From Owenia fusiformis (lineage: Eukaryota; Annelida; Polychaeta; Sabellida; Oweniidae): 64,000 nucleotides of DNA. The number at the start of each line of letters is the position of its first letter. Positions within the stretch are counted from its first letter, which is position 1. The DNA is taken from contig CAIIXF020000080.1 in the NCBI GenBank assembly GCA_903813345.2, positions 79,001 through 143,000 on the forward strand. The letters are read 5' to 3'. The notes under the pieces are model-generated. The model made no database searches. It was not told the DNA's origin and saw only the letters and a list, made by a program, of their open reading frames with translations. Both the position numbers and the translations under genes were made by a program. Shown here one piece after another: positions 4,301-52,000 of this stretch.

Positions 4301-7300
4301 TTTTCTTTGAGATATTTTGATTTTTGTAGACGCAAAATATTCAGTTAAAGAAATACCTCAGGAAGAATATTCTAAAACATAAATCGACCATTATCAGATA
4401 TGAACGGAAAATTCAACAAATTAAACAAATCTGGAAGATTTTTTTCATGAGAAAGATTACGATTGAATTGCTAAATGAATAGGCGCACGACAAAAGAAAT
4501 ATGTTAGGTCTTCTCGGATTTTTTTGAAGTGATGGGCTTCTAAGATATAAGGTCTATTAAAAAAGGCGCAGCGTAGCCAACGTGCAAATGCCAATGTTTT
4601 GCTATAAATCAAGCAATAAGGGTCTACACGACCTGTTATAAAGTGACGTTATTATTTATTTTTTTTTTTTATTTATTTTTTTATTATCATATTCATTTAG
4701 TATTACATTAACAGTGTTGGCACTTGATACCCATAAAAGGGCATATCAGTGCTAAAATCAAAAGTTGTACAATATAAAAATATATTACAATTTATATGAA
4801 TTGAATAAAGCAAGAAATACAATTATAGATATCATACCAGTTCATGTTATAAAATACGACAATATACAAAAATGCCTGCACATAAACAATTCAAAAGTGA
4901 AAAATACAAACATAATACAATTGTGGAAGAATAACAGTACATGCTCATGGCTCAGTAACAATTTATTAAGGTTTTTTTGTAATTGTATTTAAAGGAGTAA
5001 AATGATGGTAAAGATTGAAGGGATGTTGGTAGTTTGTTCCATATTATTGTTCCAGAGTATTGAATTGATTTTTTTGTTAAGTTTGATTTAAATTTGCATG
5101 GGATAATGTGATGGATTTGTCTCGTGGTACGAGTGTGTCTGAAATTGAAATACTGTTTAAATAAATGGGAAGGAAAATGTGCTGGTTCTTTAACTATATT
5201 AAACATGAATTTTGCTTTTTCTAATTTATGAATATCAAAGATAGTTAATATATGTAATTGCTTGAATAGTGGTAAACTTGGGTGAAGTAAATCTAAATTT
5301 AAAGATAATTTGACAAATTTTTTTTGAATTGCATAAATCTTGTCTAATAAAAATTTGTTGGCATTTCCCCATATGATGTTACAATATGAAATGTGAGAAT
5401 ATATAAGTGAGTAGTATATATCTAGCAAAGCTGTTAAATGTAATTTGTAGCGTATTTTGTAAAGTATACCTAGAGTTTTGGATATTTTCGAAATAATATA
5501 AGATATATGTTCGTTCCAATTTAATTTATTGTCAATTATTACTCCAAGAAAGTTTGTTTTTTCAACTCGTTCAATAGTATTTCTATCAATAATTAACTGA
5601 TATTTGGGATCATTGAGTTTAGTTTTTGATTTAGTAAAGATCATATAATTAGTTTTATCTATGTTGAGTGAAAGTTTATTGTTCTTGAACCAATTAGAAA
5701 TATTAATCATTTCATTATTTGCAATTTTGAATAAGTTTTCTAGGTTATCATCTTCGAGACATATATTAGTATCATCAGCAAAAATAACTAATTTGAAAAT
5801 ATCTGATACCTTAAAAAGATCGTTTATATATAGTGTAAATAATACTGGCCCCAAGACAGAGCCTTGAGGGACACCAAAAGTTAAAGTTTCATTTTTATCT
5901 GAATATGTATCCTCAATAAAAGTTTTTAAAGGACGGTTTTTTAAATAACTTCTAAACCAATCATTAGCAACACCGCGAAAACCTAACATTTCTAGTTTAT
6001 TTAGTAAAATTGTATGGTCAATGGTATCAAATGCCTTGGAAAGGTCTAAATATAAACCTAAAACATGTTTTTTATTATCTAAAGCAAAACGAATTTGTTC
6101 AGAAAAAGTAAGAATGGCCATATAAGTTGAATGTTTTTCTTTAAAACCAAATTGCCTTTCATGCATTAGATTATTAGTTTTAAGAAATGTAGAAAAACGT
6201 TTATGCATTACTTTTTCAAGAAGTTTAGAAAAAACACTCAGTAAAGAAATAGGTCTATAGTTCTTAAAAAGTGATCTTTCTCCTTTTTTGAAAAGTGCTA
6301 TTAATTTTGTAATCTTTAGTTTATCTGGAAAAATACCTGATTGCAGTGAAAGGTTAACAATATGTGTAAAAGGAGTAGCTATATTGAATCTAGCATGTTT
6401 AATTACCATGGGCTTTATATCGTCAAAACCAGGTGCTTTATCACCAAGTCCCTGCATTAATGTTAAAATTTCATCTTCAGTAACAGGATCCAGAAATATA
6501 GAATGTATGTTTCTCGTAATATTGGCAAATGGTGACCCATTGGAATTAATTTTTGATGCAAGTTTTGGACCAACATTTGCAAAGTATGAAGAAAAATTGT
6601 TTGCCACAGTTAATTTATCTTTCGTTAAAGTATTATTTATAAGCATGTTAAATTCAGATGCATTTGAATTATTATTTCTTTTCAAAATGTTATTAATAAT
6701 TGACCAAGTTTGCTTAAGATTACCTTTAACTTCATGGAATTTATAGCTATAATGTTTTTTTTCAGAAAAGCGAATTATATGTTGCAATTTGTTTTTATCA
6801 CAAAGCTATTGTCATTGTTGGTTTTGTAAAATACGCTATCATACATAATATAAAAAATAATCGAAAATAATGAATTTAGAACGGAAGGGGGGTGAACGGA
6901 GGGGGGGGGGTAATGTATGTATAAGGCATGAGATAAGAGATGTAACTTGATTTTATTTCTAATAACTCCAAATGTTTTTCACCTGTTCACTCTTCAGAGT
7001 TGTAACATTCAGTTGTTACTAAGTTCATTTTTCAAATACACGTTTTCTCTTCCACTTTAAAGTCATATTACTCCCCCCCCCCTCCGTTCGATTTTAATTA
7101 TTTTCGATTTTTTATCTAACGTATGGAAACTTATTTGAAAAATCCAACCGTGACATTAATTGTGGGATAAAAACGTCACTTACACGTATTTATTACATAT
7201 CGTGTAAACCATTAGCTTGATTTATGGCAAAAACAAAGATTTGTGCACGTTGTTGACGTTGCGTTATCTTAGAAGCATATTTGTTCAAAAAAATCTGAGA

Positions 7301-10300: not shown

Positions 10301-13300
10301 TAGAAGGCATGTAAGGTTCCCATTCATGAGGTAACTCTTTTTCAATGTCAACTAATTGCATTTCTTATGCTCAACAGAAAAAACTCACCAATGTCACTAG
10401 CCCATCCTTCTCCATGGTCCTTAGTAGGATCCCCGGGCAGTCGTCTGCCACTTTCGTACCTTAATATAATGTCGTGAAAGAATGTGTTTATCACTTACTC
10501 TGGTTACATATAGCACCGCGTTTACTAGCGGATAGGAAGAGTTGATTTCAATATCTCTGGGTGTGTGAGCTATATCAATGTCCGCGTAGTTCAGGATGGT
10601 TGTCATACAATTGCCGGGGTAAAACAACGATACCGTGAAAGTATTCTCTCGACATAAATTATCCCCTTCAGGGTCACCTATATATATTTTCTTGAAAAAT
10701 CCAGGTGATAAATATATTATGATTATGATTATGACTGCGCGCTCAACAGAACAATTGGTCGATACTGAGTGAAGTCAGTGTTGCAAGATAATTAACACCT
10801 AAAGCGATCCTGTACATATAGTACTTAGGCTCCATCTTTGAACTGCCCGCGGCGCAAGTAAACTGCATTATATCATGTATATCTAAGTTGAGAAGTAATC
10901 AAATTATTAAGTAAAATGCTTCCTTATAGGAATCGCAGCCGATGAGATCGGAGAGGCGTCAGTCCATCAACATTTGTGGTACAAATTAAACTATTCGTAT
11001 TTAGTCGTATGAACATTTTTGTTTGTCCATTGCTGTATCTATCTGACCTGTCATTGCCCTGACATCAAATAATCCAGAGTGTGCAAGGGATTATGGATAT
11101 TAAATCAATACACGAACTGTACAGACGTTATCGTCATATATGATCTTACCCAGACGAAGGCTTGTTTGGTGCTGTAAAGTTGACAGCAGACACAACACGT
11201 TCTGGAACTTTATTCATCTTATTGTATTCAACCATCTGAAATTATCATTGCGGTTATTAAGACGAATACGTTTACAACAGAGGGGCGTGTGACACTGCTT
11301 CCGCAACTAACGGACCCAGTATCTAGAGATACTTCCTTATTGTCCCAGTACTTAGGTAAATTGTTTGTGCTTTATCTCAATTCGAATTAATCATACATCA
11401 AAATAAATGCCCTAATGGGAGTTTATCCACATTACAACATTAGAAAATGAAAGAAATAATAAAATGTCCACATCACTGCATCCCATCTCCACCCCACCCC
11501 AAATTATGCAATTATAGTTCAAGTATGAATAAAAAGTGAATTATATTGTTTTCAAAGCGTTGCCATCTTAATTGAATTTTACCCTGTGAAGTACACCTAG
11601 CGTTTTTGATTTTTTGTTTCAACATGTTTAATATAAGGTTTCCATAATGATAATAATGTTTCATCGATAAGTACGCCAAGAAAGTTTCCAACTATAGTTC
11701 TATCTAAAAGTGTATTATTCATGAAGATTTTTATTTGTTCATGTTCAATTTTTAGGAGACCTGATATAATATAATTTGTTTGATTAAATGCAAGTTCGTT
11801 CACTTAAACCATTCATTAGTTAAAGAGAGTTCCCTATTAACTGTTATTATTAACTGATATTAAAGTCATCAAGATTGTTTCCAGAGAATAGTATATTTGA
11901 ATCGTCTGCATATAGGAACAATTTTGAAGCCTATGAGGATATGTAAATGTCATTAATATATATGATAAACCAAAGGGGTCCCAAAATTATTCCTTGTGGG
12001 ACACAACATGACGATTCAACTATATCAGACGTTTCCCCTTCGAAACATGCCACCTGGAATATTTTTGACGGATAACTTTGAAACCAATCGGAGGCAGTTT
12101 CCCGAATTTCAAAATAATATAATTTCTGCATCAATATATTGTGATTTAATGAATCGAAAGCTTTAGAGAGGTCACACATTAATCCTATGGAATATTTGTG
12201 ATCTTCTAAGGCAAGACGTGCCGATTCAACAAATTTAAGAACAACCATGAATGTTGAGTGATCCTTCTCGAAGCCATACTGATGTTCATATAAGATGTTT
12301 TGTTTATCTAAGAAATCAAGCAATCTGTTAGACATACATTTTTCATAAATTTTAGAAAATATAGAGAGAAGAGATACGGGACGATAATGTTAACAACGTT
12401 ATTGCGATATTTTTATGAATGGGAATGACTTATGTGAATTTTATATCATCTTGAAATATACACTGCATACATGACTGATTGATAATACACTCACGGTGTT
12501 ATAGCATGACGGTTACGACACCTCTGAAAACGAGATTAGACGACTACGATCACTGATTTATCCAATAAAATGGTGCATTATTTTCTTCTACTGTGTATCA
12601 ATGAAAGGATGAACGATTTTTGTAGGCATGGCATTCGGTGATGCATTTAGTAATGTATATTTTGAATGTATTCTTTGCAAATTGATGCCCGGGGATAAAT
12701 TCAAAACTACCCTGAATTTAGTAATTTGTTTATTTTTGTCGTAAGGGCATGGTCTACATTGCCTAACGACCTCGGGGTATATAGATGTAGCCTACATACG
12801 ATCATAAAAAGCCAATTGAGCATTGGAAACCACCTAATATGTTCTACTTAAGCCATAATATTGTATTTTTAATTTGCGGTTACACAAAAAAATTGATTGA
12901 GGGTTACGCGAAGCTCGTTCAAATATGTATCCCAGATTCATTGTTATTAATTTTTTTTTGTCATATTCATCAGTACTTGATGCTAATTCTTCTTTTGCCT
13001 TTTCATTGCTATCTTTGTGACTTAAATTAGTTTCATGAATAAAGCAAGACACAATTTTTTCCGTGCCCTATATAGGCTCAAACAAGAGCCTCTCTTGCGA
13101 GTCCTGAAAACAAATATAAGCAATTCAATATTCCATTTCTTTCCCATTATAACAATTACATGGAAAGAGGCTATCAGAACTAGCAACCTTAACTTGAAAG
13201 ATGTACATGCAAGTAACCATCCGCTAAATAACCAATGTACATCTAATACAATACGTTACCGTCCAAGAATTCATACGTAGTCGTCTAACGACATTGCGTT

Positions 13301-16300
13301 TGAAACCTTATTATTTACAATATACACCACGTTCCTGTTCCGGATTTGTCATTTTATGGTTGTTCATACATTAGTTTACTTACAGTTAATAGTTTGAGTG
13401 GCTCTGAGGCACATATACTGAGAAATCACGAGAATGGACTAAAAAATATGAACTTGGACATCTCAGTCGGTAAGTTTACAGCTTATATTCCACTTCTAGT
13501 AAACCACCTGGCTGATTTGACCCAGTCTTTATAACCATCCATATAAACGTCACCGAATGGAACTAGTTGAAAAGGAAATCGTATCTGTGACTCTTGCCTA
13601 CAGGCGAGAAAGAGGACATTAGAGCTCGGAACGGCATTGGAAAATGGTGCCGTATTACCGCATCTTAGAACCGAACCGTTACCGATCAATCGCTGGCGTA
13701 GGAAAATAATCAAAAAAATTCTAAAAAAATCGAACTTTTTAATTTTTTACAAACATTTTGCAATTTACCTCTTTTCCGCCTCTTACATGACGTTTGGGGA
13801 ACCGAGTGTTGTATTACAGCTTCATAAGTGTTTTCTAGTTTATTTTTACGTTCACATTCACAATAGATGGCGCGCTTCTACTTTTGGCCTCGTTTTGAGT
13901 GGCGGCAAAATAACAAGTTCAGGTAAGTGTTTTTTCAACTTTTAGGACTCTTATGCTCAAATTACATGTAAATAATTAAATATTATACCGTATAAACACA
14001 CACAATTAAAGAATGAATACACTGAAAAGACATTTACTAAAATAAATGCGACTTTTAGACGTTATTTGTGGTACCGATTAATGAAGTATGAATTATGAAT
14101 TTCCCCGGGGATTTACCGTTCGATGTCGGTAATAAATTTCAATACCGGCATTCACCAATAACCTTACCTTTGCGCATTACCGACAATAACTCCGAGCTCT
14201 AGAGGACATGCTGTCTTTCCCATCCGCCATTTTTTGTTATCGTTACCGCAAAATTTTGCAAATCGCCTTGTCGTAACCGTCATGCTGTAACACCGTGACA
14301 CTGTTGCTCATAAATATGGAATATTTTATAGATATTTATTGTTTGGTATAATTCTTACAAATGATAATAATTTGTTCAACATGTTTGTTTATTGTGTCCT
14401 GATTTCACCAAGACGAGTCGCATCCCCTTGGTGAGTCTCAACCACAATGTCAGCGGTGTGAAGTACAGTGACCTTTAGGACCTCTAGTACCACATGAAAT
14501 TGCAAAGAGAGTCTGTGGGCGTAACTTTCAACTGCAGCATGATCAAGCTCCTGTGCATGATAGGTGCATAGTGCAGGATTCCCTCTGACCAGGTAATGTG
14601 CAGCAGCTACTATAGATACCAAAGCCACATGATCAGGCTCCTCCTATAGACCACATGTGGGATGAGACTGATCTCGCAATTCATGACAGGGATCCCCTAC
14701 CTTGAAGTTTAGCAGGATTATGTACAGCACTGATTGGGGACCTTATTTTGCGTAGTCAGGTCAGACACATTCCTGACAATTGGCCCCGTGGGATGGATGC
14801 TCTGATTGCAGCACGAGGAAGATATACCGCATATTAGTGCTGTTGTGGGATAAATGACTCATTCATCTTGATTGTTACGCGGTATATGGCATACATTCAT
14901 GGTTGCGCGGTATTTCTGATACGGGTGAATATGCCATACTCACCTGCGGTATATGGCATATTCCGCAGGTGAGTATGCGATATTCCGCAGTGAATATGCG
15001 ATACAATGATTTCAGTGAATACCAGATACTCACCTGCAGAATATGTCATACTCACTTGCGGAATATGCCATATACCGCAGATGAATATGACATATACCGC
15101 AGGTGAAAACGTGATACAGAAAGCCTTGATTTGATTGGTTGCGAGAATCGACTCTAAATGTAAAATACGTTGGATTACCAATATAGTTAGTACGTCGAGT
15201 ACTAATATATGACACTGTGGCTAGTCGTAGAGTACCCGCCTCTGTACTTTTCAATGGAAGAATTTTGCACTTTTGTTTAAATAATCTACATTTACTCATC
15301 CGTGTATATCATACTTCATTGATTTACCAAACCAAAGCAACGTTATAAACACACATTCTCTGATAATTTTACAGCGAATAGATAACTCAAACGAGTTCAC
15401 TCGACCAGTTTTATCACCTCGCTCATAGCTGTGAGAAGGTATGTATAATTGCCATAGGTTTACCTTATAATGGGGAATAAAACATTCAAGTAATATAATT
15501 ATTTCACGTACACAAATATAGGCGATCAGCCTGGGGGGTTGGTCGGTACCAAATCAGGGGAATAATGGCCATGGTGATTTTTGGGAAGGTGTACACCCCT
15601 AGAGTAAGAAAATATGTGATAGCATTGCAGAAGTGGCAGCTAAATGGGTGTTATCACCCATTTTTCAAAATGGCCGCCGGTGCGCTTGCTACCATATGAA
15701 AGAAGTTATATCTAAGCATACTGAGAGGCAAAATCAGTAATTTTAGGGTCTAATTCTGGGTTTTAGAGGTCACTGATACAATTAATGCCTAAATCCAAGT
15801 CATCAAAACATAAATTCATATGAAAATCCAAGATGGCCACCAATTTTGGTTAAAAAACAAATATGTAACTAATGATACAAGCTAAAACGTTTCAAAATGA
15901 TTTTGAAGAGTTTTAGAAGAGGTTTTCAAGTCTAAGGATCTTATTCATGTCTAAATCTATGTCATCAAAGGATTACCTTATATGTAAATTCAAGATGGCC
16001 GCCAAAATAGGTGCCAAAAGGAATATGTAACTACATGTATTGATACATGCTCAAAGAACAGATAAAAAGCAATTTTATTGATCATGAAAGGGTTTAGAGG
16101 TTAATGATTTCACTTATGCTTCATTTTAGTCTCAGTGATCAAATAATTACTTTTCATAGAAAACTAAAATGGCCGCCAATATGGGTGCCGAAACGAACAT
16201 GTAACTATTAATGTAAGCTCAAAGAATAGCTAAAATGTAGTTTTGTAGATCATGAAAGGGTTTGGGGATCAATGATTTTATTGTCTTAGTTTTCAAAGAA

Positions 16301-19300
16301 TAACTTGATGTGGAAATCCAAGATGGCTGCCAAAATGAATAAGTTACCATTAAAATAAGCTCAATGAACAATTACAAAGTGATTTTGGAGACCATGTCTA
16401 GGTTTCAATGTTCGAGAATTTTAAGTCAATGGCTAAGTTTCAATGGTTGAGAACTTTAAGTCATCAAATAATTCTTTTATTTGGATATTCAGGATGGCAA
16501 CCAAAATGGCTGCCAAAATGAATAATTAATTTTGGAACATATTCATTTGGATATAAAAGATGGCCCTGATGTGATGTACCATCTCAATTGTACTCTCTTC
16601 ATCAAAACAATGAACTGGTTTATGAAAGCAGAAGAGTCTTAATATGGAGGTTTCAAAGGGAATGATAATACAAGACATCCTTCTTGCTGAGCCTTTATGG
16701 ACATCATTAATGTTATGACCTAGTCAGCTAGTCATTCCCTGGAGCATAAAAGATTTTAAGCTGCTTGGAGAAGATGAGATGTATGTAGGGCAATCCCAGG
16801 AATCTAGACTCTGCGAGCAGGTAACAAATGAAGCTTACCGGTATGTGCAATTTTTCATACTATCCATGATGAGAGAATTGAATATATTTTGACAAAATAT
16901 TTTGATGGGTCCCAACAACAGCATCTGTGAGAACTAGAAAAGTGGATGAAAGCTATTGACCTTAGCAATGTAGGGAGTTGGTACATAGAGATTATCCTAT
17001 ATGAGGTTCGGGATATTGGGATTATCCCGAGGCCAATATAATATATCTGCCCGAGGGCCGTAGGTCTGTAAAGAAAGGACAAACTCAATCCAAGTCTACA
17101 ATTACACAGAAGATAATATCTCGGATGGACTGAAGAGTGTTGAGTATGAAGACCTCGTTGACAAAGTAAGGTGTAAAGGGTGGAAGGTGAGACACTTTCC
17201 AGTGCATGTAGGCTTTAGAGGCTTCCAATGTTCTTCTCGGAACATCATGTTGAGAGAACTAGGTCTGCAGCCTGTGAACTTCAAGATGGCAATACAGGAA
17301 ATAGGTTAGATGGTTGAGTCATGCTCCATGTGAATGTGGTAATTTATTTTGGCAGCCAGTTTGGTGACCATTTTGGATTTTATTATGAGGAAATGTTAAG
17401 ATAACTTAAGTAAAGGCTAGTAAATTAAAATCATTTTCTCCCGAAACCCAGTCTCAGATTTCTAATAACATAACTATTCTAATTTTTCTATGTCCATATA
17501 AATTCATTTTTGCAGCCATTTTGGCAGCCATTTTAGATTTCTATATAAAGGTATTCTTTAATTACTTCAATTTACACATGAATGGGATCCTCAACCTCTA
17601 AAACCTTACCATGGTCTGCAAAAGCAACCTTTTTTTTGAGTTTACATAAATAGTTACATATTCATTTTGACATTCATTTTGGAGGCCATTTTGGATTTCT
17701 ATGTAAAGTAGTCTTTGATTACTTAGATTGAGAGACAAATAAAATCCCTAGCCTCTAAAACCTTTCCATGGTCTCCAGAGTCACTTTTAACCGTTCTTTG
17801 AGCTTTTTGAACTGAATCAATAGTGACATATTTGTTTTGACATCCATTTTGGCGGCCATCTTGGATTTCCAATTCTTTGATGACTTAGATTTTGACTTAA
17901 ATGAAATCCTTGACCCCTAAAACCCTGAAATAGACCTCAAAATCACTGTTTTTGTCCCTCAGTATGCTTAGATATAACTTCCTTTATTTGGTAGTAAGTG
18001 CACCGGCGGCCATTTTGAAAAATGGGTGATAACACCCATTAGCTGCCACTCCTGCAATGCTATCATATAATTTCTTACTCTAGAGGTATTTACCTTGCCA
18101 AAAATCACAATGATGCTTATTCCCCTAACTTGGTACCGATAACCTAAATTTTGGGGTGAAGCTGATGGCCTAATATGTCTGTATTGAACACTATAATATA
18201 ACAATAAAATAATAAAATGTCCTCAAATGCCTTTATGGCTCAACAACTCAAATACAAATGTCTATGATACACTGAGAATCAACACTCTGAGTTGTCTATC
18301 TCTGTTCTGGCTTTCTGCTCTGCTCTCTACACTGTCTGTCTACTCTGCTATGTCTGTCTGTACTTCTCTCTACTCTGCCAGTCTGCTCTGCTCTACATTG
18401 TCAGCTCTGTTCTGCTACACCTGTCTGCTTTACTCGGCTCTGCTTGTTAGCTCTGCTCGACTCTGCCTGTTAGCTCTGCTCTGCTACAGCTGTCTGCTCT
18501 ACTCGGCTCTGCCTACTCTCTGATCTACTCGGCTCTACCTGCTCTGCTCTGCTGCATGGGTGGAAATTACCTTCAATGGGAGAATTCTAGCTCCAGACAG
18601 AAAAAGTCAGGAATGTCAATCAAAGATGAGATTAGACGCGAGATTTCTGCCTCAGTGGTAGCAGGTCAGCCACCTCAATGGTCAGTCACCTCTTGGTCAG
18701 TCACCTCTTGGTCGAAGTTGTCTCAATATTGAGACTAATCAGCTCAAGTGAGGGGGAACACTCTTGCTCCTAGTTGTCACTCCCTCTCCCTAGACACAGC
18801 TAATCACCTCAATAGAAGAACGCTTGCTCTAAGTCGTCACCTCTCAGAAGTAACCAACTCTCATCAATAGAAACACACTCTCTTGCAGAGTTGTCCCTCT
18901 CCTGGGAGTAGTCAACACACGTCAATGGGAGCTCCTCTTGCTCCGAAATCGCCACTCTGGTGAGATGAGTAGGGAATATCAATCAAGGATGAGATTAGAC
19001 CCAACTCACACACCTATGTGGGAGTAAGTACGTCTCTCCAACAAGATCACCTCTGCTCTCGGCGAGATAACTCAGGAATATCAATCAGTAAACTGAGATA
19101 AGACCAGAGTAACTCACCTCCCGGAAGTTATCAAAGATGGTGGACACGCAATGAATAATGGGAAGAAGACGAAGAAGAAATGAAGTCACAAAATGGCTAC
19201 GCTGAATTAATGGATCAATACATCAAATCTATCAGAGAAAGGATCAACATAAATCAATCAACACTCACAAACTGCAACTCTGCAAAGTGTCTCCAAGGCG

Positions 19301-22300
19301 CCTCTAGACTGCACTAATATAATCCACGAATATATCTCTACCAATCCTAGATCTGTTCGCCAACACACAAGCAGCTAATAATCCAATAAATCACTGTTTG
19401 TATACGTCCTACAAAACAGTGCAACACGCAAATCTACTCCAAAATTGTCCTTTCTTCACTATAGAATCCTTCAGCTTCTTCAATGCCTTCGAATACTTCA
19501 ATATTCCAACATAAAACACTTTGTTCCATCAACTTCTGGCGCTAGAATCACTAAAATCACTGTACAGATCTTGATACTTCGACACAAAAAGCTAGACTGC
19601 GCACATCATGCCAAATTCTGTCCTATCTCACTTCACTAATTATATGCGGCGGGAAACCCTCTGATTGGCTGAGCTGGGTATGTTACTGCATTTGGTGTTG
19701 CATTCTGGGTAATATTCATGAGCCATAATCCAGGCATCCTGTTGACATTTCTTCTTCTGTCTGGCTAACATTCCATTCACATACAGGTTGTACCATTCTA
19801 CTCCAGGGGTTCCCTCGGCAACAGAGTAAATACATCTCTACATGGTACACACATGAGCCATTGAACTCTATGAGTGAGTCGACTGACTCCACATATAAAA
19901 ATATAAAATTAAACAAAAATGAAAATCACAATGTCTGTCGTTGCATCACACTTATAAATATACATATATATTTTGTCTTACAATAAATAAATACAATTCC
20001 TTAGTGATAAGGCGACCATTGCTTCGTGTTTATTGTCAGTGTATCTGCTGTCACCTAGAATTTAGAAGTATAATTTATAGTCGTGATTCTTACCAATTGC
20101 AACTCCAGACCACCATACCAAGTCTGTGCTAAAAAAGTGATTGTTTCTAGATTGGCCAGAGTTCCGACAATATTATTACAAATAATCAGTAAACAGGATT
20201 ACCATATATGTAAGTTTGTAATATAGCAATCCTAAATAGCATTTTGTTCTATAACACCGAATGTTTAAATCACGAAATATTATAACCATGGCCTCCTCCA
20301 CCAATGTGCTACTGCAATACTTATAGCGAAGCCTGTGTTGATCAGGACCATTTTTATTATATTTTATTATCATAAGAATTAAAAGTAAAAATGAATGAAG
20401 TCTTACCTCAGAAACGTCCAATGAAACAGACGAAAGCCCATGAACCAAAAGTATTTAGTTTCCTTTCTGTATCTTACTTGTTTGGCACATGGAGCGGTGA
20501 AATAGTCCACAGTGTCCAAAAACAATAATAATGCTATATTGGTAATTGGAAAGATTCCACTTACCACAATTTCAAAAAAATTGTAAATAGATGATATAAT
20601 TCTTGAATTTGGGTCATTTGTTTCAAGGAATCTGTAGGCTCTTTTAGCTGAGCTGACAAAATCATCAAGATTTACAGATGGTCCATCTGTTGGCTGCTCA
20701 TTGTCACTTTCAAGGAATGTTAATGGCTCTGAAACTTGATCTGTGGATATTTCAGTGGGTTGATGGTTTTTGGGCTCTGAATTCACTTGATTGGCGTACC
20801 TAATTTCAACATCTTCATTGTCATCATTACATGTTATGGATCCGTTTTTCAGATTAACAGTATTAGGGATGAAACCATAGTTTTTTCTTCTGTAATGGCA
20901 TTTTCCAGTTGATGGGTCTATATAAAGTCTATCAATTTTCAATTCTTCATGAGGGTGTATTGTAATGGACTAATTACTTCACTGAACAAGGAATGTTTAT
21001 CCGAACAATGGATAAAAAGAAAATCTGGCCAGTTGTCCATCTGTAAATAAATCATCATGATAAAAGCATAATTTATTATAGCATCCATTTGTTGTTACCG
21101 TTCTGAATCCAAATGATACATAGTTGAATCCATTTGATACATATATGTTGACGTTTACGAAATGTTGTTCAAATATCTTCCCTATAACAGGAATATGCTA
21201 GCTGAAACTTTCACACATTGCCATACTATGTATATTGAATATGTATGCAAGATTTCAAGTCAATATGTTAAGTAGAAACTCTGAGATCACTTACCTCGAT
21301 TTTCTGTCATATTTTTTCAACGACCCCATTCCCTATAATGTACGCGAGAACCCACGAAACATTGCATATACATGACTGCATCCACATTGATCGACTAGCC
21401 ACAGTGTATGAATCCTGGATTGATAAGTTTATTACGCGAGATTGGTGACTGATAATTCTGCTAACTTAATATATTCGATACACAGTACTGTTGATTCAGT
21501 AATCATTATAATAACTTATAACGTTTTACTTGTTCGTTCAATCGATGCAATTGACAATTGCGTACTTCTGTATCACGTTCTCATTGGCTAGTTTGTATGC
21601 CATATACCGCAGGTGAATCTGTCATACACCGCAAGTGAATATGCCATATTCGTTGCGGAATATGACATATATTTGTATCGTGTTTACCGCGTAACATTGA
21701 TGACCTGATGGTCAGCTTTACATTACAATTTGGATCGGGGTGTTTTGAAAATGCAAACTTTTTGAGACTACCCAATTTTAAACAACAGCAAATTTCTAAA
21801 CTTAAATGAAAATATTTTCTCCCTAAAAAATGGTGATTTGTTAATTAAACATGTATTCATGATTTGCCTAGAAAATAAATTGCTTAAATGACTCCAAATA
21901 GTTGTTGCCTGAATTCCGATCTGACAAATCTAATATTCCATATTTATGAGCAACAGTGTATAAGTAAGTGGTGAGCTTATCAGATGACTATTAAATCTAA
22001 TTACTTTTGGATTGATATTATCTGTGCCAGCAGCAGAATCTGTTAATGAAGAAATTACCCTTAAGATTTCTTCATGGTTGACAGGTCGAAGGAAAATAGA
22101 ATTAGCTACCTCTGGTATTTTACTTAAAAACTCTCGGGGAGTACTATTTGAGGGCCCTATACTAGCTGCAGTATCTTTACCAATATTGGAGAAAAATGAA
22201 TTGAATCCATTCGCAATTCCCTATCTTTTTCTCTGTAGCTGTATCGGTTGAAGGATTTGATTCAAATTTTGGACGCCATTTTTCGTGAAAATATGTAATC

Positions 22301-25300
22301 TTTGATGCCTAAGGACAAAAGAGCTTTGCTCAAGAAAATATTTTCAAGATGGCTACTGAATTTCATAATAGCCACCATTTTTTGTAAAAATGTAATCTTG
22401 GTTTCATAAATACCAGTGAACGGATTTAGTTCAACTGTTATATGCTGATACCTATAGACACAAGAGTTGTGCTTGAGAAAGAATTTTGCTAAATTACAAA
22501 ATGGCCGCCATTTTCTCCTAAAAACGTAATCTTTAATAACTTAAATTCACGTTGATTTTGTTCAAATTGTATATGCTGGTGCCTAAAGACAAAGGAGCAC
22601 TGCACGAGAAGAGAATTTTGGATGACCATTGAATTTAAAAATTGGCGCAATTTTTCGTAAAAACGTAATCTTTGATACCTCAAAATACCAGTGGACGGAT
22701 TTGATTCTAGTTTTATATTCTGATGCCTTTGGACAAATGAACTGTGCTAATGGCCTAGTCACATAGCCCGGCCGATGTCCGGCATCGGTAGAGCTCGGTG
22801 GATTTTTTTGGTGCCACCGAGCTCTCCTCATCGGAAGCAGAGCTCGGTGACGTGAACGGACTCCGTCCGAACATCTTCAGGTACTATACTTTCCAAGGCT
22901 CTGTCCCACATCGGCCGGAGCTCGGTCGGAGCTCGGCCGGTGTCCGTTAAAAAAAACTCGTCCTCTGGTTGTCTCAGATGCACGGGACACCGACCGATAC
23001 TCGGCCGTGCACCGGCCGACGTGTGTTCTGATGTGGTTACGATGGGGCTGCGATGAGGGAGCTCGGTGAGAGCCCGGTGAAATTTAACTCCGAAGTTAAA
23101 ATTTCACCGAGCTGCCACCGATGCGGTTTTAAGCAACAAACGCCACGGATGTCCGGCCGGTGTCCGGCCGGTGTTCGGCCGAGTTCGGTGAAAATTGCAT
23201 CGCTGGCTCATCGGAACCTCATCGGCCGGGCTATGTGACTAGGCCATTAATTAGAAGAACTTTTCAAAATGACAGTATGCCGTATTGGGGTAGGACCTCT
23301 GTTCAAGAAGGACTTTTCAAAATGGCCACTCAATTCAAAATGGCCGCCATTTTTCGTAAAAATATCTAATCTTTGATAATTCAAATACTACCTGACGGAT
23401 TTGATTCAAATTGTGTATGCTGTTGCCTAAGGACAAAAGAGATTTTCAAGAAGATATTTTCATCTTTCGTACAAATGTAATCTTTGATACTTCAAAATAC
23501 CAGTATACGGATGGATATACGTATATGGATGGATTTGGATCAAATTTAGTATGCTGATTCCTAAAGATAACAGAGCTTTGCTTATGAAAAAATATCGCCA
23601 CTATTATCGAAATGGCCGAAATTGATCGTTAAAATGCATTTTTTAACAAAAATACCAGTTAACAGAATTGTGTTATTTTATATGCTGATGCCAAGGAACA
23701 AATATCTGCTCAAGAAATATTTTTCAACGCGGCAGCTAAATGGCCACCAATTTTATAAAAATACTCTTAGATAACTCAAATACCACTGGACGGATTTGGT
23801 TCAAATCTTATACTTTTATATGCTGATACCCAGGGACAAAGGAGCTCTGTGCAAGAAATTTTCAAGAAGGCTGCTATTTATCAAAACATGTTTTATTCGG
23901 TAGGATTTGCTGATCAGTGATGTTGCTATTTTCTAGTTACAGCCTTTTAACCCTACTATCACACCAAACTATATCCCACTACGTTCTCGAGAACGGGTTT
24001 CAACTGTGTATGAACGGACTGGACGTACTTAGAACCGTTTTGGGTCTATTTACAAACTTCATCGAACGTACTTGAACGGGTAGGTCCTCTAGAACTTAGA
24101 ACATGCTCAAAATGCTGTCGTGGTCGTCACGTTCTACAATTAAAACGAGTGACAACGTACTAACGACGAGCTGGACGTACTACGAACGGAACCGTCGTAC
24201 TTCAATCCTACTAGGGACGATTTTACAACGAGTTGAACTGTCTGAGGACGTATTGAGAACGAGGTAGAACTAATTGCAAATGGGTTTAAACTGATTAAGA
24301 AAGTATTAAAGAATGCTTATGAACGAGTTAGCAAAAATATAGCTATCACACCAAACAAGTTGCCACTGCGTTCTTCAAAACTGGTTTTAAAGTGTGTGCG
24401 AACGGAATGAACGTAGCTGGAAATTTGTAAGGACTATTTACGAACTTCATGAACATTCTCAGACGGGAAGGTGATTTTAGAATTTTGAAATGATTAAAAA
24501 TTCGATGGCGACCATACCGTATTGTAATCAGGTCACGATGATCTTCTAGACTAAGGGACGCGTTATACGACGTTGCACACCGACGTGGTGCGACCTGAAC
24601 GAACTGCGAATGAGATGGACGTATTGAAGACTGTTTATGAACGAAGTAGCTAATTATTTTAGACATATTTCCCGACCACAGCCAGATTAAGCTCGTTTTA
24701 CGACGTTTTCGTAGGACTGGCAAGAACGGGTAAGAACTTAGTTTGGTGTGATAGGGGGGTAACCTTTTCATGAAAGCCTTCACTGTTAGGAACAGTACTG
24801 TGCCCATCTGGTTTCTGTTTTGCAAACATCAACTTGTCCCCGATGTCAGTCACATTGTATTTGGACAGGTGAATTCCTAAAATATATTTAATGTGTTTTT
24901 TCAAAGCAAAATGGCATAATCAAATCTAAAAACATATAATAATAATAATGATATAAATATAAAGCATAACACGATTTGAGATACATCAACTCAATTTGAA
25001 ATTTTGATGTGTCTGATTGCTTACCACTTGTGTCGGTTTCATTGATGTAGTATGCCCAGTTAGTTTGTCTTGTCTTCATGTTAGACACATGTAACCTTGC
25101 AGATAGATGGCTAACAATTGCTTTTTTAAGTATTACTACTTCTTCATCCTCATCTTCAGGATACCATACCATGTTTGCTTCACCGTGCCCGTCGATGCTA
25201 AAGTGGAACCTAAATGGAGAATTAATCTATATTCTTAATAATAATATTAGTTGCTCAGCCAAAGTCTTTTAGATATTTATTTTCTCTATCATATGTGCTA

Positions 25301-30580: not shown

Positions 30581-31941
30581 CACCCCCTGGTATAAGTGTG
30601 GACAGTTTTTTGAAGCAATGACGAAATGTGTGGACAAAGCCCGGCAAAACGGTATCGTATTAATACCTCGCTAATCAAAATAATATTCTTTTTATATTCC
30701 TAACGCACTAAGCCAGTAAATTCGCTAAAAGCACAACCAAATGAGAGTAAAAACTTAGTAAGAACAAAAAATTGCGCTTAAACCCATTAATTGTTGAGAT
30801 CTTGTAAGTTAAAGTTGCAAAACCATGTTAGTTTTTTGAAAATTCAGATTGTTTTCACTGCTAGTAGGATTATCTCACATTATTTCTAGTTTAATATTTG
30901 TAAGATGTGTCGAGCTTATCGAATTGTCGGTTAAAGATGTTATAAAATAGCAATCATAATATGTTCTTAGCTTGTTTTTAGCAAAACTCACAACTAGATT
31001 TTAATATTTTAACTACAAAGCTAGATAATTTCCCTAAAAAATATTTCGAATATAGGAACTGTTCATCTGAAATGTTGTTATTATTGTGTACTTTTTGGAG
31101 TCATGTCACCATGGCAGTTTTGACGTGCCACAAATTCAAGTTATTCTTGAGTCAAATCTGAATATTGTTGTCGAAACCTACTTGAAAAGTTTAATTGCCT
31201 TTGACCAAGGATACATGTTCTATGTAGTATTCAACCGTTGAATTTAATTTACTATAATCAACCTACCTCTAATCTTATCATATCATTCTTTCCATGAAAG
31301 AAAACTCATCGGTTCTAAAGACATTGTTGAAGCCACGTCGATATTTGTGATTACCTCGTTTGTCTAAAAATCTAAAAGGTTAAGAAAAAATGTTCCGAAT
31401 TCTTCTTTAGAAAATTCAAATCAAAACTTGTATCCCAATTGTGTGTCAAAATACTACCACTCGATGTGAGGTTCGTAGAAGCACTGCTCCTTTGATTTAT
31501 ATAATAATATATATGGATGCACTCGCACATGTTTATATACATCACAACATTGTCCATACACAAAAAAAATATTGACAAATCACTCATAAACAGTATTATA
31601 TAAGCGCTGGGTTATGGTTCCTCAGAGGATGTTTATTGACTAAAAAAACAAAAAAATAAGGAGAATTCCAAAAAATACTGAACATTATTTTAATGTTTTT
31701 GTAAAATCGCATTTGACTTTCAATTTCATAATAATCACACTGTAATTTGACCGTTTTTGGGGTTTACATTGATAGGTGTTCATTGACACACCATCAAAAT
31801 ATTTTACCAAGTATTGGCATTACAAGGCGTTCAAATATGAAATATAAACATACCTTCCCTCCAAGACCTCCATTTTGCCGGGCTTTGTCCACACATTTCA
31901 TTATTGATTCAAAAAATTGTCCACACTCATACCAGGGGGTG
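30581..31941. mobile_element. DNA element U, TIR CACCCCCTGGTATAAGTGTG, 5-bp duplication ATATG
   Basis: The left end CACCCCCTGGTATAAGTGTG (30581 on) continues for ~75 bases (gaaatgtgtggacaaagccc), which are inverted at 31870-31941. ATATG flanks both ends (30576-30580 and 31942-31946). The interior (1.36 kb) is AT-rich without a recognisable transposase, so it is non-autonomous. Confidence 0.8.
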
Positions 31942-34968: not shown

Positions 34969-35487
34969 TGTTACGCGGAATATGGCATATATCCATGGTT
35001 GCGCGGTATTTGTTATACGGGTGAATATGCCATACTCACCTGCGGTCATGGTACATTCCGCTTGTGAGATACATAGACTTCAGTGAATACCCGATACTCA
35101 CCTGCATATACCGCAGGTGAGTATGACATATACCGCAGGTGAAAACGTGATACAGAGAGCCTTGATTTGATTGGTAGCAAGAATCGACTCTGGATTTATT
35201 GAGTAAGCTTGTTACGTGATATTGCTGGGTGATACTTCTGCATTTCTTGATATATTCAATGCACTGTACTGTTGATTCAGTAAACATTACATAATGATTT
35301 ATAAACTTTTACCAGTTATTTCAATAGATGCAATTGACAATTGCGTACTTCGTATGCGTATTGCGTTCTCATTGGTTAGTGAGTATACCATATACCGCAG
35401 GTGAATCTGTCATACACCGCAAGTGAATATGCAATATTCGTTGCGGACTATGACATTATATTTGTATCGTGTTTACCGCCATTAACA
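34969..35487. mobile_element. MITE Y copy 2 (complete), GACGG duplication
   Basis: Starts TGTTACGCGG and ends CCGCCATTAACA (imperfect). It is flanked by GACGG (34964-34968 and 35488-35492), a 5-bp duplication like copy 1. The left third alternates atatgccatactcacctgcgg with its complements. The right third has ataccgcaggtgaatctgtc. At 519 bp it gives the intact layout against which the split copy at 14873-21696 can be read. Confidence 0.85.
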
Positions 35488-36455: not shown

Positions 36456-36656
36456 ATGAGAAAACATGTCCAAATACATTTATCAAATAATTATATTGAT
36501 TCCTTTAGGTTAAAAATACCATTTCATATCTGCTTTAAAACTCTTCTAAAAATTTCTCCATCTAAAATGTCACTCGACTTTTTGGCAATTAAAAGTCCCT
36601 GCCTGCATTTAGTAGTCATATATTGTCATGTGCATAATTTTGAAACCATATCCTAA
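36456..36656 (+). pseudogene. LRR fragment, Toll-like receptor debris (plus strand)
   Basis: One frame reads VQIHLSNNYIDSFRLKI then LLKISPSKMSLDFLAI. The L-S-N-N-x-I-x-x-F and L-x-x-L-x-I...K-M-x-x-L-D-F spacing is that of leucine-rich repeats of Toll-like type. No start or membrane/TIR region follows. The segment coding SPSKMSLDF is repeated inverted on the minus strand at about 37040-37066, so the two debris pieces face each other. Confidence 0.45.
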
Positions 36657-37019
36657 TTATTTCACAAACCCTTTGTTGATTCTGCCATAGTTTCCAATTT
36701 GTAAACAGCATTTAGCCTTTTTAATTGGGAACTTTTTTGAAATTTTCAAAATGGCTGCCATGTGATTCCAGAATTAACATGAGTGTGACGTGACATCACA
36801 GTTGCTCGTTCCTAGGTAACAACAAGATCACAATTGCTCGTTTCTAGATAGCAACAAGATTTTTGATAAAATGGCACAGAATTACCCTGATTAACACCCT
36901 TAAAATCCGATTTTCAAAGAATATATTTGGAGAAACAATAAAAGGTAAGTGGAATAAATTAGAAGATGGTTTCAAGTTACCACAGAAGTCAATTTGAAAC
37001 TCAAGCATGCTTTCTTTGA

Positions 37020-37817
37020 CTCATAATCACAAAAAAGTCGAGTGACATTTTAGATGGAGAATTTCTTAGATATTCCAGTTCACTCAACTCATTTAATCAA
37101 TCAATTACATATATTCTGTTTAGTATAGTTTGTTACACAATGTTTATATGCCTGGGAATAAAACACGTCGATTCTATTATTTGCCTAATAATCTATTTCG
37201 TTGATAGAAGTCGGTTTCAACTGTAATAATAGAAAGGACATGTTCAAGCTGAAGACTGGACCCCCTTGTCCTCTTTATGTTTTACTAAAATCTAAGACCT
37301 CTACTTTAGAACTTTTCAGACTATTTAATGCAAGAATGAGAAGTTCTATAGCTTTAGTTCCACGTATTGTATGGAATGGTAGACATATTCGAATGCCTTA
37401 TTTCAGTAGAATCTGTGAATATATCAAACTTGCCTGTCTCCAATTTCAATTGGCTTTATTCTTAGTTTGATTTCTTGTAGCCCCAAAAACTATATTCGAT
37501 CCGATGTATGTAGTTTCCAACTTGGCTTAAATGTTTTAAGTTTGGATAATACATATATAAAAAGTGTTTCGTTTGATGGTCCACCCATTGACTTTTCTAG
37601 TAAGTTAAATCCAAAATCCAGTCTTGAGATGTTGGGTGATAAGTCATTTATTGGTATATTTGTCAACAAACCATGCTCATTATTTTCACTTTGATAACTG
37701 TATACGTACACATTTGCAATACTTTGAATCCTTGCAAACATCGGACAGTTCATGTAGGTGATTATCGGCTCCCATCGCAATTGTCAACGGTAGGACGATA
37801 TATATCAAACGCGCCAT
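37020..37817 (-). pseudogene. Toll-like LRR receptor pseudogene, N-terminal part
   Basis: ATG at 37817 begins a signal peptide (MARLIYIVLPLTIAMG), followed by DVCKDSKYCKC, a cysteine cluster like an LRR N-cap. The next frame gives LLTNIPINDLSPNISRLDFG (the usual I-P-x-D-L-P...L-D-L cap-to-LRR1 join). Another gives NLKHLSQVGNYIHRI, then LNSLKSSKVEVLDFSKT, then LSELEYLRNSPSKMSLDF. The succession of LRRs across all three frames with several stops shows a decayed gene. A Toll-like identity is inferred from LRR style; no TIR domain is present. Confidence 0.6.
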
Positions 37818-43000: not shown

Positions 43001-46000
43001 TCCATCAGAGGATATAACAGCTGAGCGATGCCCAACTGCATCTACTGCCTGCACTTTGGTGTAATATTTACCTGATAAAAATTTCTAGGGAATAAACAAT
43101 AGTTTCAGATAAAGGTTTTAAAGAAAACAGGGTTTTAGGTCAAAATAAACAATACCTAAATACAATCAAATAATGAAATCATAGTACTATTAAAAGCGAA
43201 TTACCAGGTTGCAATGCACCAGGGATCGCAATCGACGCACTGGTTTGTAGCCCGACACCATAAAATGGAATCACATCACATGTTGATGTGTCTGATGCAG
43301 TTCCAACACAACAGATATAGTAGTCTATTCCACTGTGTCGGTCGTAGAATCCGTGCCACTGGGCATGAAGTATAGTTGTCTCATTGGTGTAGTCTGCGTC
43401 GTATAAAACTGCAATATTTCATCATTTTTTAAAATTTAAGAACTAATTGAAATAACTTAACTCATACTGTAATCAAATGCAAATATTCACTTACATCTGC
43501 CATCGAATACTATTCCAGGGATAGGCGGTTCTATGTCAACTGTAAACCCATCAGATACTTTCGTTGCTTCTAATCCAGTGTTTGACACTGCAACTATTGT
43601 TGTGTAGTACTTCTGGCCTGGTGTCAAAGACATCCCAGATAACTGGACGTTTGTATCAGTCTGCTTTGTGAACTTATAAGCATCATCAACTAAATGAGAA
43701 AGGCTCGACATAAATAGTCAATTACACAGACTGAATTAGAATGAGAACTGTTACACATTATAAGTAAATCATCAATTACAAATGTTGCATCAGAATGCAG
43801 AAGTTTACACATAAATACATTGTCAATTACACAGATTGCATCAGAATAGTCTCATCAAAATTCAGACACATTGATAAAACACAAAGCACAACGTTAATCT
43901 TCCAAATTATATACTCACTCTACTATACCTTGCATTTGGTGTTCATGAGCAACCCATTTGGCTTATCACTAATGACTACAGTGTATATTATTTGTTTTAT
44001 GTGTCAGCTGCTTATGAATGGTTTATTGGATGACTGTTAGATGTTAATAAGGTACTTGCAAAAAATATACCAAACAATACAATTAGAGAAACAGAATATC
44101 TAATGCATTTCTAGGGGTTGGGTATAGTAGAGTGATACTATATCAGAAGAACCATACAGCGAAATATGAAACTTCAACTATTTAGTAAGATAATCATATT
44201 AGAATTAAATACGAATTCCGAGAAATGAGTAACGGCAGAATTGATTAAGATACCTAGTACTGCAGTTCCTATTCCCAACAGAAAATGGGAAATGCCAGAT
44301 TCCTCATCTGCAAAGACACCTGGCCAACGGACGCTGAGTTTATCAACACTACCAGTAAAGTCCTTATCAAACTCAACGTAAGAACCATCACTTTCCTCGA
44401 CCTTGTAAATATGAGCAATTGCATGTTGTTACATGTTGCATGTAGCCAAAGGAAATGAGACAACTTATGGAACATAGAGTATTATTTAAAAATAAAATTC
44501 AATATGCAGGGGGAGTGGTGAGTTAGGAGCTAGGTTATTGTAAATTATAGCTACATTATCACATTGATAATTATGTCAGTTACGAGAGAAATCCAGGCCC
44601 AATTAATGAACCGACTTGGTCAGGTTAATCGAAAACATTTATCTGCATATAATACTATGCGATACTGTACGAAAAGTTAAAACAGACATAATATGACGCA
44701 CATGTCTAATACGAGAAACGGTTGGTGGGCTGATATCGATGAGAATGCCATCTGACTGGAAAACTGTGAACGTAACGTCATCATACCAGGCCCGTACATA
44801 GAAAATATATCTTTGGCCTTGTAGAAGTCGTGCTGAAATGAATATCCAAAGTTCACTATGTATAATAGAATAAAAGTGTCATAAAGAAGGCTTTAGCGGG
44901 GAATATAACAATTCTGCCAAGGGGATTCTTGAAAAAGTTTTAATAAACATCATAGAAGTAAAATGACGCTATAACGGGGAACATACTATAACACATCTGA
45001 CAAAGGGATTCTTGAAAAAGTTATAACAGCAAATCAAGAAATCCCTTGCGTTTGCTTAAAGATAGTCATTATCGTAATGTTCTTCAACACCATCTTACTC
45101 GTCTCCATGATATCAAAGTTTAAAATATGTAGAAAAAATAAACATACTTAAAGTGGGAGTAATGACAGCATGGTTATAAAATCCAGCCTCAAACCAAATT
45201 CGATCATTCACTAAATTTACTACACCACTACCAAAACCGTCTCCTTCTAAACCAGCTGTATATTCGTATCTAAAACACAAATGTTTTCAAACAAGTGTCT
45301 TCAAACTAATTTTGAACTATTCACGACCTGTTTGCACTTCGACCAAAGCAGGGATACTATTATCAAACTATACCATTATTGCTGGAACTTGTATTCCTTT
45401 ATTGTTGTTCAAGCAGACAATATTTATTTTTTCATCAATTATGTTCTCATCTATTCCTTAAAATCAAATCAAGCATAGAACATCTTTTAGGACATCGCTC
45501 TTTTATTTTGCCATATTCAATTTTAAGGATAGTATAATGCTTAAAACCTAATAGGTGGTTTTCCATTTCGTTCGGATATTGTCCACACTGCTGCTAACAA
45601 GCAATCCGAATGTGTGAAATCCATGTCTTCTAGTAAATTATCAGACTTCTCAAAACTTCCAATGGCTTGAGTATCATTCACCAGGATGACAAAATTGTCA
45701 CCTAAAAATTCATTTATGTATAAAACGCTATAGTATATCCAAGAAAAAGAAAATTCACAGCAACAAGAATTGGTCTGTTTTATAAAATATTGTTAAAAAG
45801 AAGATACCGTCAATGTAATTTCAATGTTCAAGGTAAATTGATATGAATATTGAATCAAAGCAGATTACACAAGCATTCTATGTAAAATGTTTCCACAAAC
45901 TAAGTTTTATAATTGGAAATGCTTCTGATCCGTACTTAATTAATTAATGAGGCATACACAATCTCTCTCAGAAAATGCATGCGATAGTTGAAAATTTGGT

Positions 46001-49000: not shown

Positions 49001-52000
49001 GGCCAACAACAGGAGGGGACGCATCCACTGTGAACGCATGCGAACTCGCAGTTGTATGTAAGCCAGCCCTGTTGTATGCCTACAATAAAGCCAATGAAAA
49101 CATCATTATCATTTACATTATTGTCTAAAGTGATGATATATTTTATATTACTTCATCACTGTATTACTATTTTGATTATATCTTCAATGCATCATTTTCC
49201 AGGAATCAATCCGTCAGATTATTTTTGAAAGAGTGTATTCTTGAATCCCTTGATGAACTTTCACTATTCAGAATAGAGCTAACTCAAAATGACGTACTTT
49301 GACAGTGACGTAGTACACATGCCCATCTAAAAGTTCGAGGTTAGCTATGTTGGACGTAGTTGATGTATATTTTGTCTGATATGGTCCACTGATATCTGAA
49401 AAGCCCGGTTCTGATCCAACAGACCAAGTGTAATGAATAATTCCACTCTCTTTATCCTCAAATACCCCTAACCATCTGGAATAAAAGCACACAGAACTAA
49501 AATATATAAGCTATCTCTCGTGGAAAAAGAAGATTTGAATATCATTGAACGCCATTCACAAAAGTGGTTACATAACAATTTCAAACAATAAAGGTCTCAA
49601 ACGTGATGAAAGATTACATTTTTAGCTTTTACCACTGTTTCAAAAAATGATGAAAAATACTTTCTCTGCATATATTTCTAAGTTTGTTGGTACCACTGGA
49701 GACCTCACTCGCACATGAGTCATTTGTGTTAGTTGTGGTGGGGTTGTATCCACAATGACTGGAGAACTACAGACTTGGGTCGATAATCCAACGAAGTTCG
49801 TGGCTAAATGCGAGTAGAAGGATTGTGATCTTCAACAGTCCATATTCATAAGTTATATATCACAGTAGAATATACAGGGTGGGCCAAAAAAACCACCCCC
49901 TAGCCATTATTCCTGATAAATATTTATTTTTTAACATGTACACCAACAATGATATATCATTTTAAAGGTAATTTAATTTGCAACACAATGATATATAATA
50001 GCACCATCTTCAACAACCCCATATAGAAATATAACCAATTATGTGACATGGGGGTCAAAAAACACCTTTTTAATTTTCATCAATTTTGCGAAGAATAGCC
50101 TACCAAATTTTACTGTTCAGTTAAAATTACAACATTGTCTCATAATTGGATATACAGGGTGATCACTAAGTTCTGGGAAGTTGTCTGTCATTTCAATATT
50201 TTTCAACCAATTCAGTTGAAACTTCCAGCAAATGTACATTGTATAATTCTGAATTGACAGACAATGTTTCATATACATATCACTTTTACAATTTATTTTA
50301 TAGTAATTATAAAAAAAGTAAAAGTGGTCAGCGGGTCAGCAAATTTTAACTGACGTTAATTTGGAAATATCCTACTAAAACATATTCATTTTGCCTAGAT
50401 GGTTGGTTCAAACTTATTGTACTAGAGGCAGAACAGTACTCTTGAAGTCATTTATTCAGAAGTATTCTTCATTGCTGGAAGGATCATTTCATTTATAATG
50501 ATTTCCATAGGCCTGGACGCCCATGCATTGTTGTCAAACCTAGTCCATAAAGTTGCTTTCCAGTCCTCCCCTTGGTATCCCTTGAAAATTTGCTCAAGCT
50601 GTTGAGATCATTCCCTCATTGGAACCAAACTTATGATGATCTCTCATATGATGCTTCAACAGTCAAATTTAGTGAACCTAATGGTGGTTCATCTGGGGAA
50701 ACATTATATGGTGAATATGGGGCATGAACAACTTGTGTGAACCCTAATTCTTCAAGACTAGTATGGACAATTTGAGGAATGGGAAGAAGCATAGTCATAA
50801 TGGAAGATAACTTCCCGCTATTTTGAGTCATGATTGGGCCTTTGAGAGTCTGACCAATGATAAGAAAATTGAGCAAAGTGGACTCTTATATCACAATACA
50901 GATGTTACTTTAAAAACTAAAGTGAGAAAAATGTGAAAAAATAAAAATCACAGAAATTTGTCCACCAAATAAATATTAATTAACCATACATTTGGATCAA
51001 GTAAATAAAAATGAATTCAAGTTTTGCTTGACCAGCTACGCCATTTGTCACGTTGCTATAGTAACAATAATTATCCATCGTTACATCATATGACAATGAA
51101 ACTGTTTTATCCAGCCCAAAACAATATTATCCATTTACCTTGAAAATTTCAAGTAGATTGGTTGAAAAGTAATGAAATGACAGATAAATTCCCAGAACTT
51201 AGTGATCACCCTGTAATATATTGTTTTCAATCAGTTTTTGAACCATGTATGATCAATAAACATGTGTATGCTTATAAAACAAATTAATTTCTTCTTAAGT
51301 CTGTCCAAATATGGCTCAATAGACCCACCCCCGGACCCATCCTCTGATCAGATTATTTGCTTAAGACGCCGATGCCATTTGTTGATGGCATAATAGATGG
51401 ATGTATGCCGAAGTACCATTCAACTGCTAGTTATTCTTTCTTTTAGTTCCTCTACATCCCTGATAAGCTGGGTATCTCTAAATACCAACTGTTCTAGATG
51501 CCCCCGGGTATGGTTATCAACATTATTGGCATCTGCACTGTCAGTTAGCCATTTGTCCGGGCTAGAGATGGTGTCATTTTGAATCTCCAAAAACTCCAGG
51601 GTAGCAATGAACCTGTGTGATGGAGCACTGTACTATCAGAAAATGAAATTTCTTTCACATGTTTTTATATCCTTGAGGAGTCCTTTTTTAACACCTCATG
51701 TCATAAACATTCAGAGTATACTTTCGCTCCCGGTTCAACAAAAACAGGGCCTGTGGGGTCTTTCCTTTTTGGGAAACACCGAGTGGACACCACTACCCTT
51801 TCAGAAAAATGTCATCTCGATTTGAGTAGCCTTTTATCGCAAATGTCCCTATTCTTGCTTACTGATTGTAGAGTCTATCCTGTTGATTACATGTATAGTA
51901 CTTGGGGCATTTAGAACAGTTGGTCTATGAAGATTACTCACCTATCAGGGATGTAGTCAAACTGAAAGAATGAATAATTAGGAGTTTGATGGTACTTCCG

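Follow-up and report, generated by a model that had tools for sequence, protein, structure and literature searches.

Element Z occupies positions 15213-21406 of a 64-kb stretch of the genome of the annelid Owenia fusiformis (64,000 nucleotides of contig CAIIXF020000080.1, here called the window, to which all coordinates refer), and is a decayed, once mobile cut-and-paste DNA transposon with both ends and a TATGA target site duplication in place. In its ends and its 5-bp stagger Z is consistent with the Transib-type members of the CMCT clade, and we put at about one half the probability that Z was moved by a DDE transposase of this clade, most likely a Transib-like one. Z was probably non-autonomous, and a Transib-type mode of action has our moderate confidence. 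We do not file it as Transib or RAG-like, because our search for a catalytic core brought up no RAG-type enzyme and because its target bias differs.

The terminal inverted repeats of Z (left, 15213-15227, plus strand; right, 21392-21406, minus strand) are identical at 15 of 15 bp, reading CACTGTGGCTAGTCG with the heptamer CACTGTG at both, and are flanked by TATGA at 15208-15212 and 21407-21411, a duplication of exactly 5 bp around the one copy of Z. These ends and this duplication had been proposed in a sequence-only reading of the window, together with past mobility and a RAG/Transib-style affiliation of the ends, and all of this holds up: CACTGTG fits the preferred RAG heptamer, given as CACNRYR in PMC9723617, as does the CACGGTG of a second element, X1. 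With up to three mismatches allowed, the 15-mer occurs solely at Z's two ends, both with 0 mismatches, and there is thus no second Z in the window; such loose matching has a chance expectation of 0.45 matches, and 2 matches were reached in 10 of 100 shuffles. The real window contains four perfect inverted pairs that are 13 bp or longer and flanked by an exact 5-bp direct repeat; Markov simulations produced such pairs in 3 of 60 runs, three pairs altogether. Inward of the 15 bp, we looked for 12/23-like asymmetric spacer ends and found 130 bases sharing one 7-mer and two more 6-mers, roughly chance level by our own estimate, nor did we find a convincing nonamer-like second block common to both ends.

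Past mobility is supported not only by the perfect ends and the exact 5-bp duplication, but also by a host repeat that exists in an uninserted second copy. The repeat that received Z (14873-21696; ends TGTTACGCGG..CCGCGTAACA, duplication TTGAT) measures 625 bp after removal of Z and one TATGA; from its TG..CA ends and 5-bp duplications we take it to resemble a solo long terminal repeat (LTR), with a small DNA element as a further possibility. The copy without Z, a paralogous empty site of 519 bp, lies at 34969-35487 (duplication GACGG, right end diverged). BLASTN matches the flanks of Z to 34969-35191 at 72% and to 35198-35479 at 85%, the left flank up to 15155 and the right flank from 21419, and the alignment carries a 57-column gap across the junction. 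The empty copy therefore shows insertion at this place, although not the exact TATGA junction, which the gap spans; the earlier claim that Z had entered another mobile element stands to that extent. The entire nest is enclosed by an outer element (12488-21958), perhaps Tc1/mariner-like, whose inverted ends CACTGTTGCTCATAAATATGGAATATT are 27 bp long and which is bordered by TA on either side.

The borders of Z remain as first drawn, but not all of the sequence between them appears to be its own. The segment 15499-18193 is a long imperfect palindrome, the right end of which reads TAGTGTTCAATACA inward, and contains many imperfect internal repeats around AAGATGGCCGCC. It is flanked by the 8-bp direct repeat TAATATAA (15491-15498 and 18194-18201), the longest of many AT-rich direct-repeat candidates tried. 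This is probably a later, hAT-like insertion into Z, the end and duplication patterns of which fit a non-autonomous hAT element. Without it Z is ~3.5 kb long, comprising a left remainder (15228-15498) with no coding match in the three plus frames read and a right remainder (18202-21406) containing the remnant of a minus-strand gene. Low-complexity repeats of the CTCTGCTCTGC type at 18295-18556, within the right part of Z, perhaps belong to another insert. An LTR within 18202-20400 was sought through TG..CA termini and 5-bp repeats, and the inverted matches of the best candidates extended over only 3 leading bases.

The signature of CAC ends with a 5-bp duplication is common to four elements within this one stretch: Z, X1, X2 and X3. 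A scan of the window for inverted pairs alike at 14 of 16 bases, with the first 6 exact and no more than 9 kb apart, returned 1142 pairs, 15 of them starting CAC; four of these carry a 5-bp duplication, four a 2-bp duplication and seven none. Relaxing the match to 13 of 16 gave a CAC-start list of 48 rows, in which the same four have 5 bp and the remaining 44 have 0 or 2. From base composition alone, ~0.02 duplications of 5 bp would be expected among the 15 and ~0.07 among the 48. Forty simulated windows yielded 7281 pairs, 16 with a duplication of at least 5 bp, and none of those 16 started with CAC.

X1 (12492-14297, 1.8 kb) provides the most exact case, with 29-bp ends CACGGTGTTAYAGCATGACGGTTACGACA alike at 28 of 29 positions and the duplication ACACT. 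It interrupts the left terminal repeat of the outer element, whose intact right end serves as its empty site: removing X1 and one ACACT restores 30 bases identical to that right end, and ACACT is therefore a true, base-exact 5-bp duplication. A Pfam match of X1 to PBECR3 (E 0.13) fell below the cut-off. X2 (30581-31941, 1.36 kb) has ends starting CACCCCCTGGTAT that agree at 64 of their first 69 positions, with the duplication ATATG, and a longest stop-to-stop frame of 79 aa among those listed. X3 (43916-44134, 219 bp; 14-bp ends CACTCTACTATACC, duplication ATACT) is the weakest of the four.

The minus-strand gene of Z had been described as spliced, with an acidic N-terminus and a hydrophobic stretch. 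We find a 188-aa open reading frame (ORF) at 20403-20969 with an acidic middle, a hydrophobic stretch and RYRKETKYFWFMGFRLFHW; its residues 1-100 include 17 acidic against 9 basic residues, the stretch EIVVSGIFPITNIALLLFL has a mean hydropathy of 2.0, and dinucleotide shuffling of Z produced an open frame of at least this length in 2 of 500 trials. A 51-aa frame upstream (20939-21094, minus strand) overlaps it in another register, suggesting that the two are one gene front, frameshifted. The splicing is a reading of splice-site-like motifs only, comprising a donor-like motif at 20406 that adjoins the end of the 188-aa frame and, within 21182-21310 of the same strand, a further donor-like motif (21295) and an acceptor-like one (ending at 21182), inward of a possible start codon at 21310. 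A single-sequence structure model of the 188-aa product was poor (mean predicted local distance difference test score, pLDDT, 56.7; predicted template modelling score, pTM, 0.25); it shows strands between residues 12 and 56 and three helices from position 101 onward.

The 188-aa ORF was compared with Pfam, PDB, PHROGs and NCBIfam and matched nothing significantly in any of them; matches at E 0.017 and 0.027 in Pfam and at E 0.072 in PHROGs were below the cut-offs, and those in PDB (E 0.33 and 1.4) were noise. No relative was found in viral_contigs, and in genome_contigs 25 stretches fit a peptide pattern, with none of the 25 confirmed. A degenerate DNA pattern for FW..G..LFH..FL picked out five viral contigs, all of which were dropped because of stops in the frame of the pattern and no further likeness; four of the five have several such stops (L002 and L004 read alike) and L003 has one. 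Within the window, tblastn of three ORF pieces returned self matches and a single chance match of 9 residues.

In the reading we prefer, a CMCT-clade DDE-type transposase, most likely Transib-like, would have recognised the CACTGTG ends of Z, excised it and joined it to the target with a 5-bp stagger, and repair of the gaps would have left TATGA on both sides. The minus-strand gene near the right end may represent the front of this transposase or of an accessory protein, presumably broken by decay and by the loss or replacement of its remainder; a later, probably hAT-like element would have split Z. X1, X2 and X3 suggest that one kind of enzyme could have served several families in this genome.

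A number of results weigh against a Transib-like enzyme. Pfam includes a RAG1 model and PDB includes Transib chains. Ten ORFs of Z matched no transposase family in Pfam, and six frames of Z returned no family at E 1 in six of six; these were the three plus frames across the whole element and, for 18141-21406, the three minus frames, with stops written as X. The minus strand of 15213-18140, mostly later insert, is represented by three ORFs lying there or across the border of the insert, either among the ten searched or listed as open frames. A PDB sequence search with the 188-aa ORF and the three minus frames found no RAG or Transib chain. The same is true of X1, for which six frames gave no significant Pfam family and one of the six frames gave no RAG or Transib chain, nor any significant match, in PDB. 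The four elements share no sequence mutually (BLASTN, E 0.01), and the heptamers of X2 and X3 do not fit CACNRYR. Duplications of at least 5 bp also flank 20 of the 1127 non-CAC pairs; 15 of these are self-complementary, most of them lying within long palindromes. Finally, ProtoRAG duplications lean towards GC, a bias stated also for Transib and RAG in PMC8289069, whereas those of the four CAC elements are AT-rich (5 G/C in 20 bases; 1 of 5 in TATGA), the GC bias being a tendency and not strictly defining.

The missing core had already been noted in the sequence-only reading, and the profile search of the minus-strand frames proposed there, run here against Pfam and PDB, brought no Transib, RAG1L or RAG2L match; convergent RAG1L/RAG2L genes were likewise without a match in the Z frames read. 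That no Transib/RAG1-type catalytic core was found in this copy of Z is a weak test, as the copy is short and broken, the test had no Transib profile and no known Transib as positive control, and Repbase and Dfam were outside the scope. Among individual candidates, Pfam matches of three other Z ORFs (E 0.16, 0.023 and 1.5) were below the cut-offs, and the PDB match 8yva_A (E 0.088), from a frame full of stops, was noise. The sequence-only reading had left the choice between a decayed Transib relative and a separate superfamily. The Transib-like ends and 5-bp duplication agree with the former; the poor fit to the RAG-like consensus described below speaks against a RAG-like element, and the AT-rich duplications speak against classical Transib.

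The alternative that survives best, possible though unlikely in our view, is that Z belongs to another CAC-ended CMCT lineage (EnSpm/CACTA-, Chapaev- or Mirage-like, or undescribed) making 5-bp duplications at AT-rich sites. It would account for the AT-rich duplications of the four CAC elements and for a gene front without a Transib or RAG match, and the CA..TG ends and the 2-5 bp range of duplications reported for the clade accommodate it. EnSpm/CACTA (2 or 3 bp) and Chapaev (3-4 bp), with CAC..GTG ends as in Z, make shorter duplications, however, than the exactly 5 bp of all four elements. A distinctly doubtful reading takes Z and its gene as an undescribed superfamily, in which the unassigned front would lead into a transposase peculiar to it. 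The failure of the 188-aa ORF to find a significant match or a relative in the collections searched points that way, but says little, because the contig collections are viral and prokaryotic and because the scope excluded Repbase and Dfam; moreover, the ends of Z fit a known clade.

An option that the sequence-only reading did not list, and which we think more doubtful still, is a hAT5-type element, from a group with 5-bp duplications. The ends of hAT elements start C/TA..G, and Pfam includes hAT models. Z begins CACTG instead, and no hAT model was matched in the Z ORFs or frames read, a weak result for a broken copy. A search of the literature for hAT5 end sequences did not find them. What speaks for hAT5 is the presence of a probable hAT-like element within Z at 15499-18193 and the shared duplication length, the group being known here from a reference title in PMC12730594. 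That the ends and duplication of Z are coincidence is very improbable, for although chance yields inverted pairs of 13 bp or more with a 5-bp direct repeat in a few simulations, 0 of 40 gave a pair that both starts CAC and has a duplication of at least 5 bp, and the host repeat exists in a copy without Z.

A further and quite unlikely reading is that Z, X1 and perhaps X2 and X3 form an undescribed CAC-ended lineage with 5-bp duplications at AT-rich sites, in which the unassigned gene would be the front of the transposase. If true, this lineage would be a branch beside Transib and RAG that kept the recombination signal sequence (RSS)-like heptamer and the stagger while target choice and protein architecture changed. 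Transposons are regarded as the source from which vertebrate antibody-gene recombination acquired RSS-like ends and 5-bp staggers, and new families with RSS-like ends help to map which enzymes can read them. The ends of Z are convincing, but this copy yielded no enzyme, so that it offers a starting point for searching the genome and not a result on RAG origins.

Elsewhere in the window, a 504-bp non-CAC element (36556-37059) has perfect 28-bp inverted ends CTCCATCTAAAATGTCACTCGACTTTTT and the 5-bp direct repeat AATTT, and an element with inverted ends TAGTCACATAGCCCGG (22756-23241) lies within degenerate repeats at 22303-23845. At 49904-52449 lies a long inverted repeat spanning ~2.5 kb, the arms of which match in many segments, and the minus strand of 4952-6805 carries a 617-aa ORF that matches RVT_1, a reverse transcriptase domain, at E 1.7e-35.

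Among known systems, the Transib superfamily shares with Z the CAC start, the CACTGTG heptamer, short symmetric inverted ends and the 5-bp duplication, which is termed typical for Transib in PMC4411706. Transib ends, for which we relied on papers later than the original description, can be symmetric or asymmetric and have a nonamer-like part, according to PMC8355894. Z is unlike Transib in that no Transib core and no nonamer-like second block were found, and in its unassigned gene front. Among the literature matches we found no paper that combines Transib with CACTGTG; the matches listed for CACTGTGG with transposon include no title on such an element and one on RAG signals (PMC9723617). The RAG-like elements (RAGL/ProtoRAG/TransibSU) also share the CAC start and the 5-bp duplication, and the ProtoRAG heptamer CACTATG is one letter off CACTGTG. 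Protostome RAG-like transposons make 5-bp duplications and have the end consensus CACTWMCAAACKTYKBB in PMC7204232, with which, over the first 15 positions, Z agrees only at 1-4 and 12-15; at the conserved AAA of positions 8-10 Z has GCT, a poor fit. EnSpm/CACTA families, with 2 or 3 bp duplications as given in PMC12730594 and PMC6004678, have CAC..GTG ends like Z and a shorter stagger. The CMCT transposases have C(2)C and H(3-4)H between the second D and E, and no catalytic part is recognised in Z. The clade as a whole (EnSpm/CACTA, Mirage, Chapaev, Transib and relatives) is described, in PMC12730594, by CA..TG ends and 2-5 bp duplications, and Z has both.

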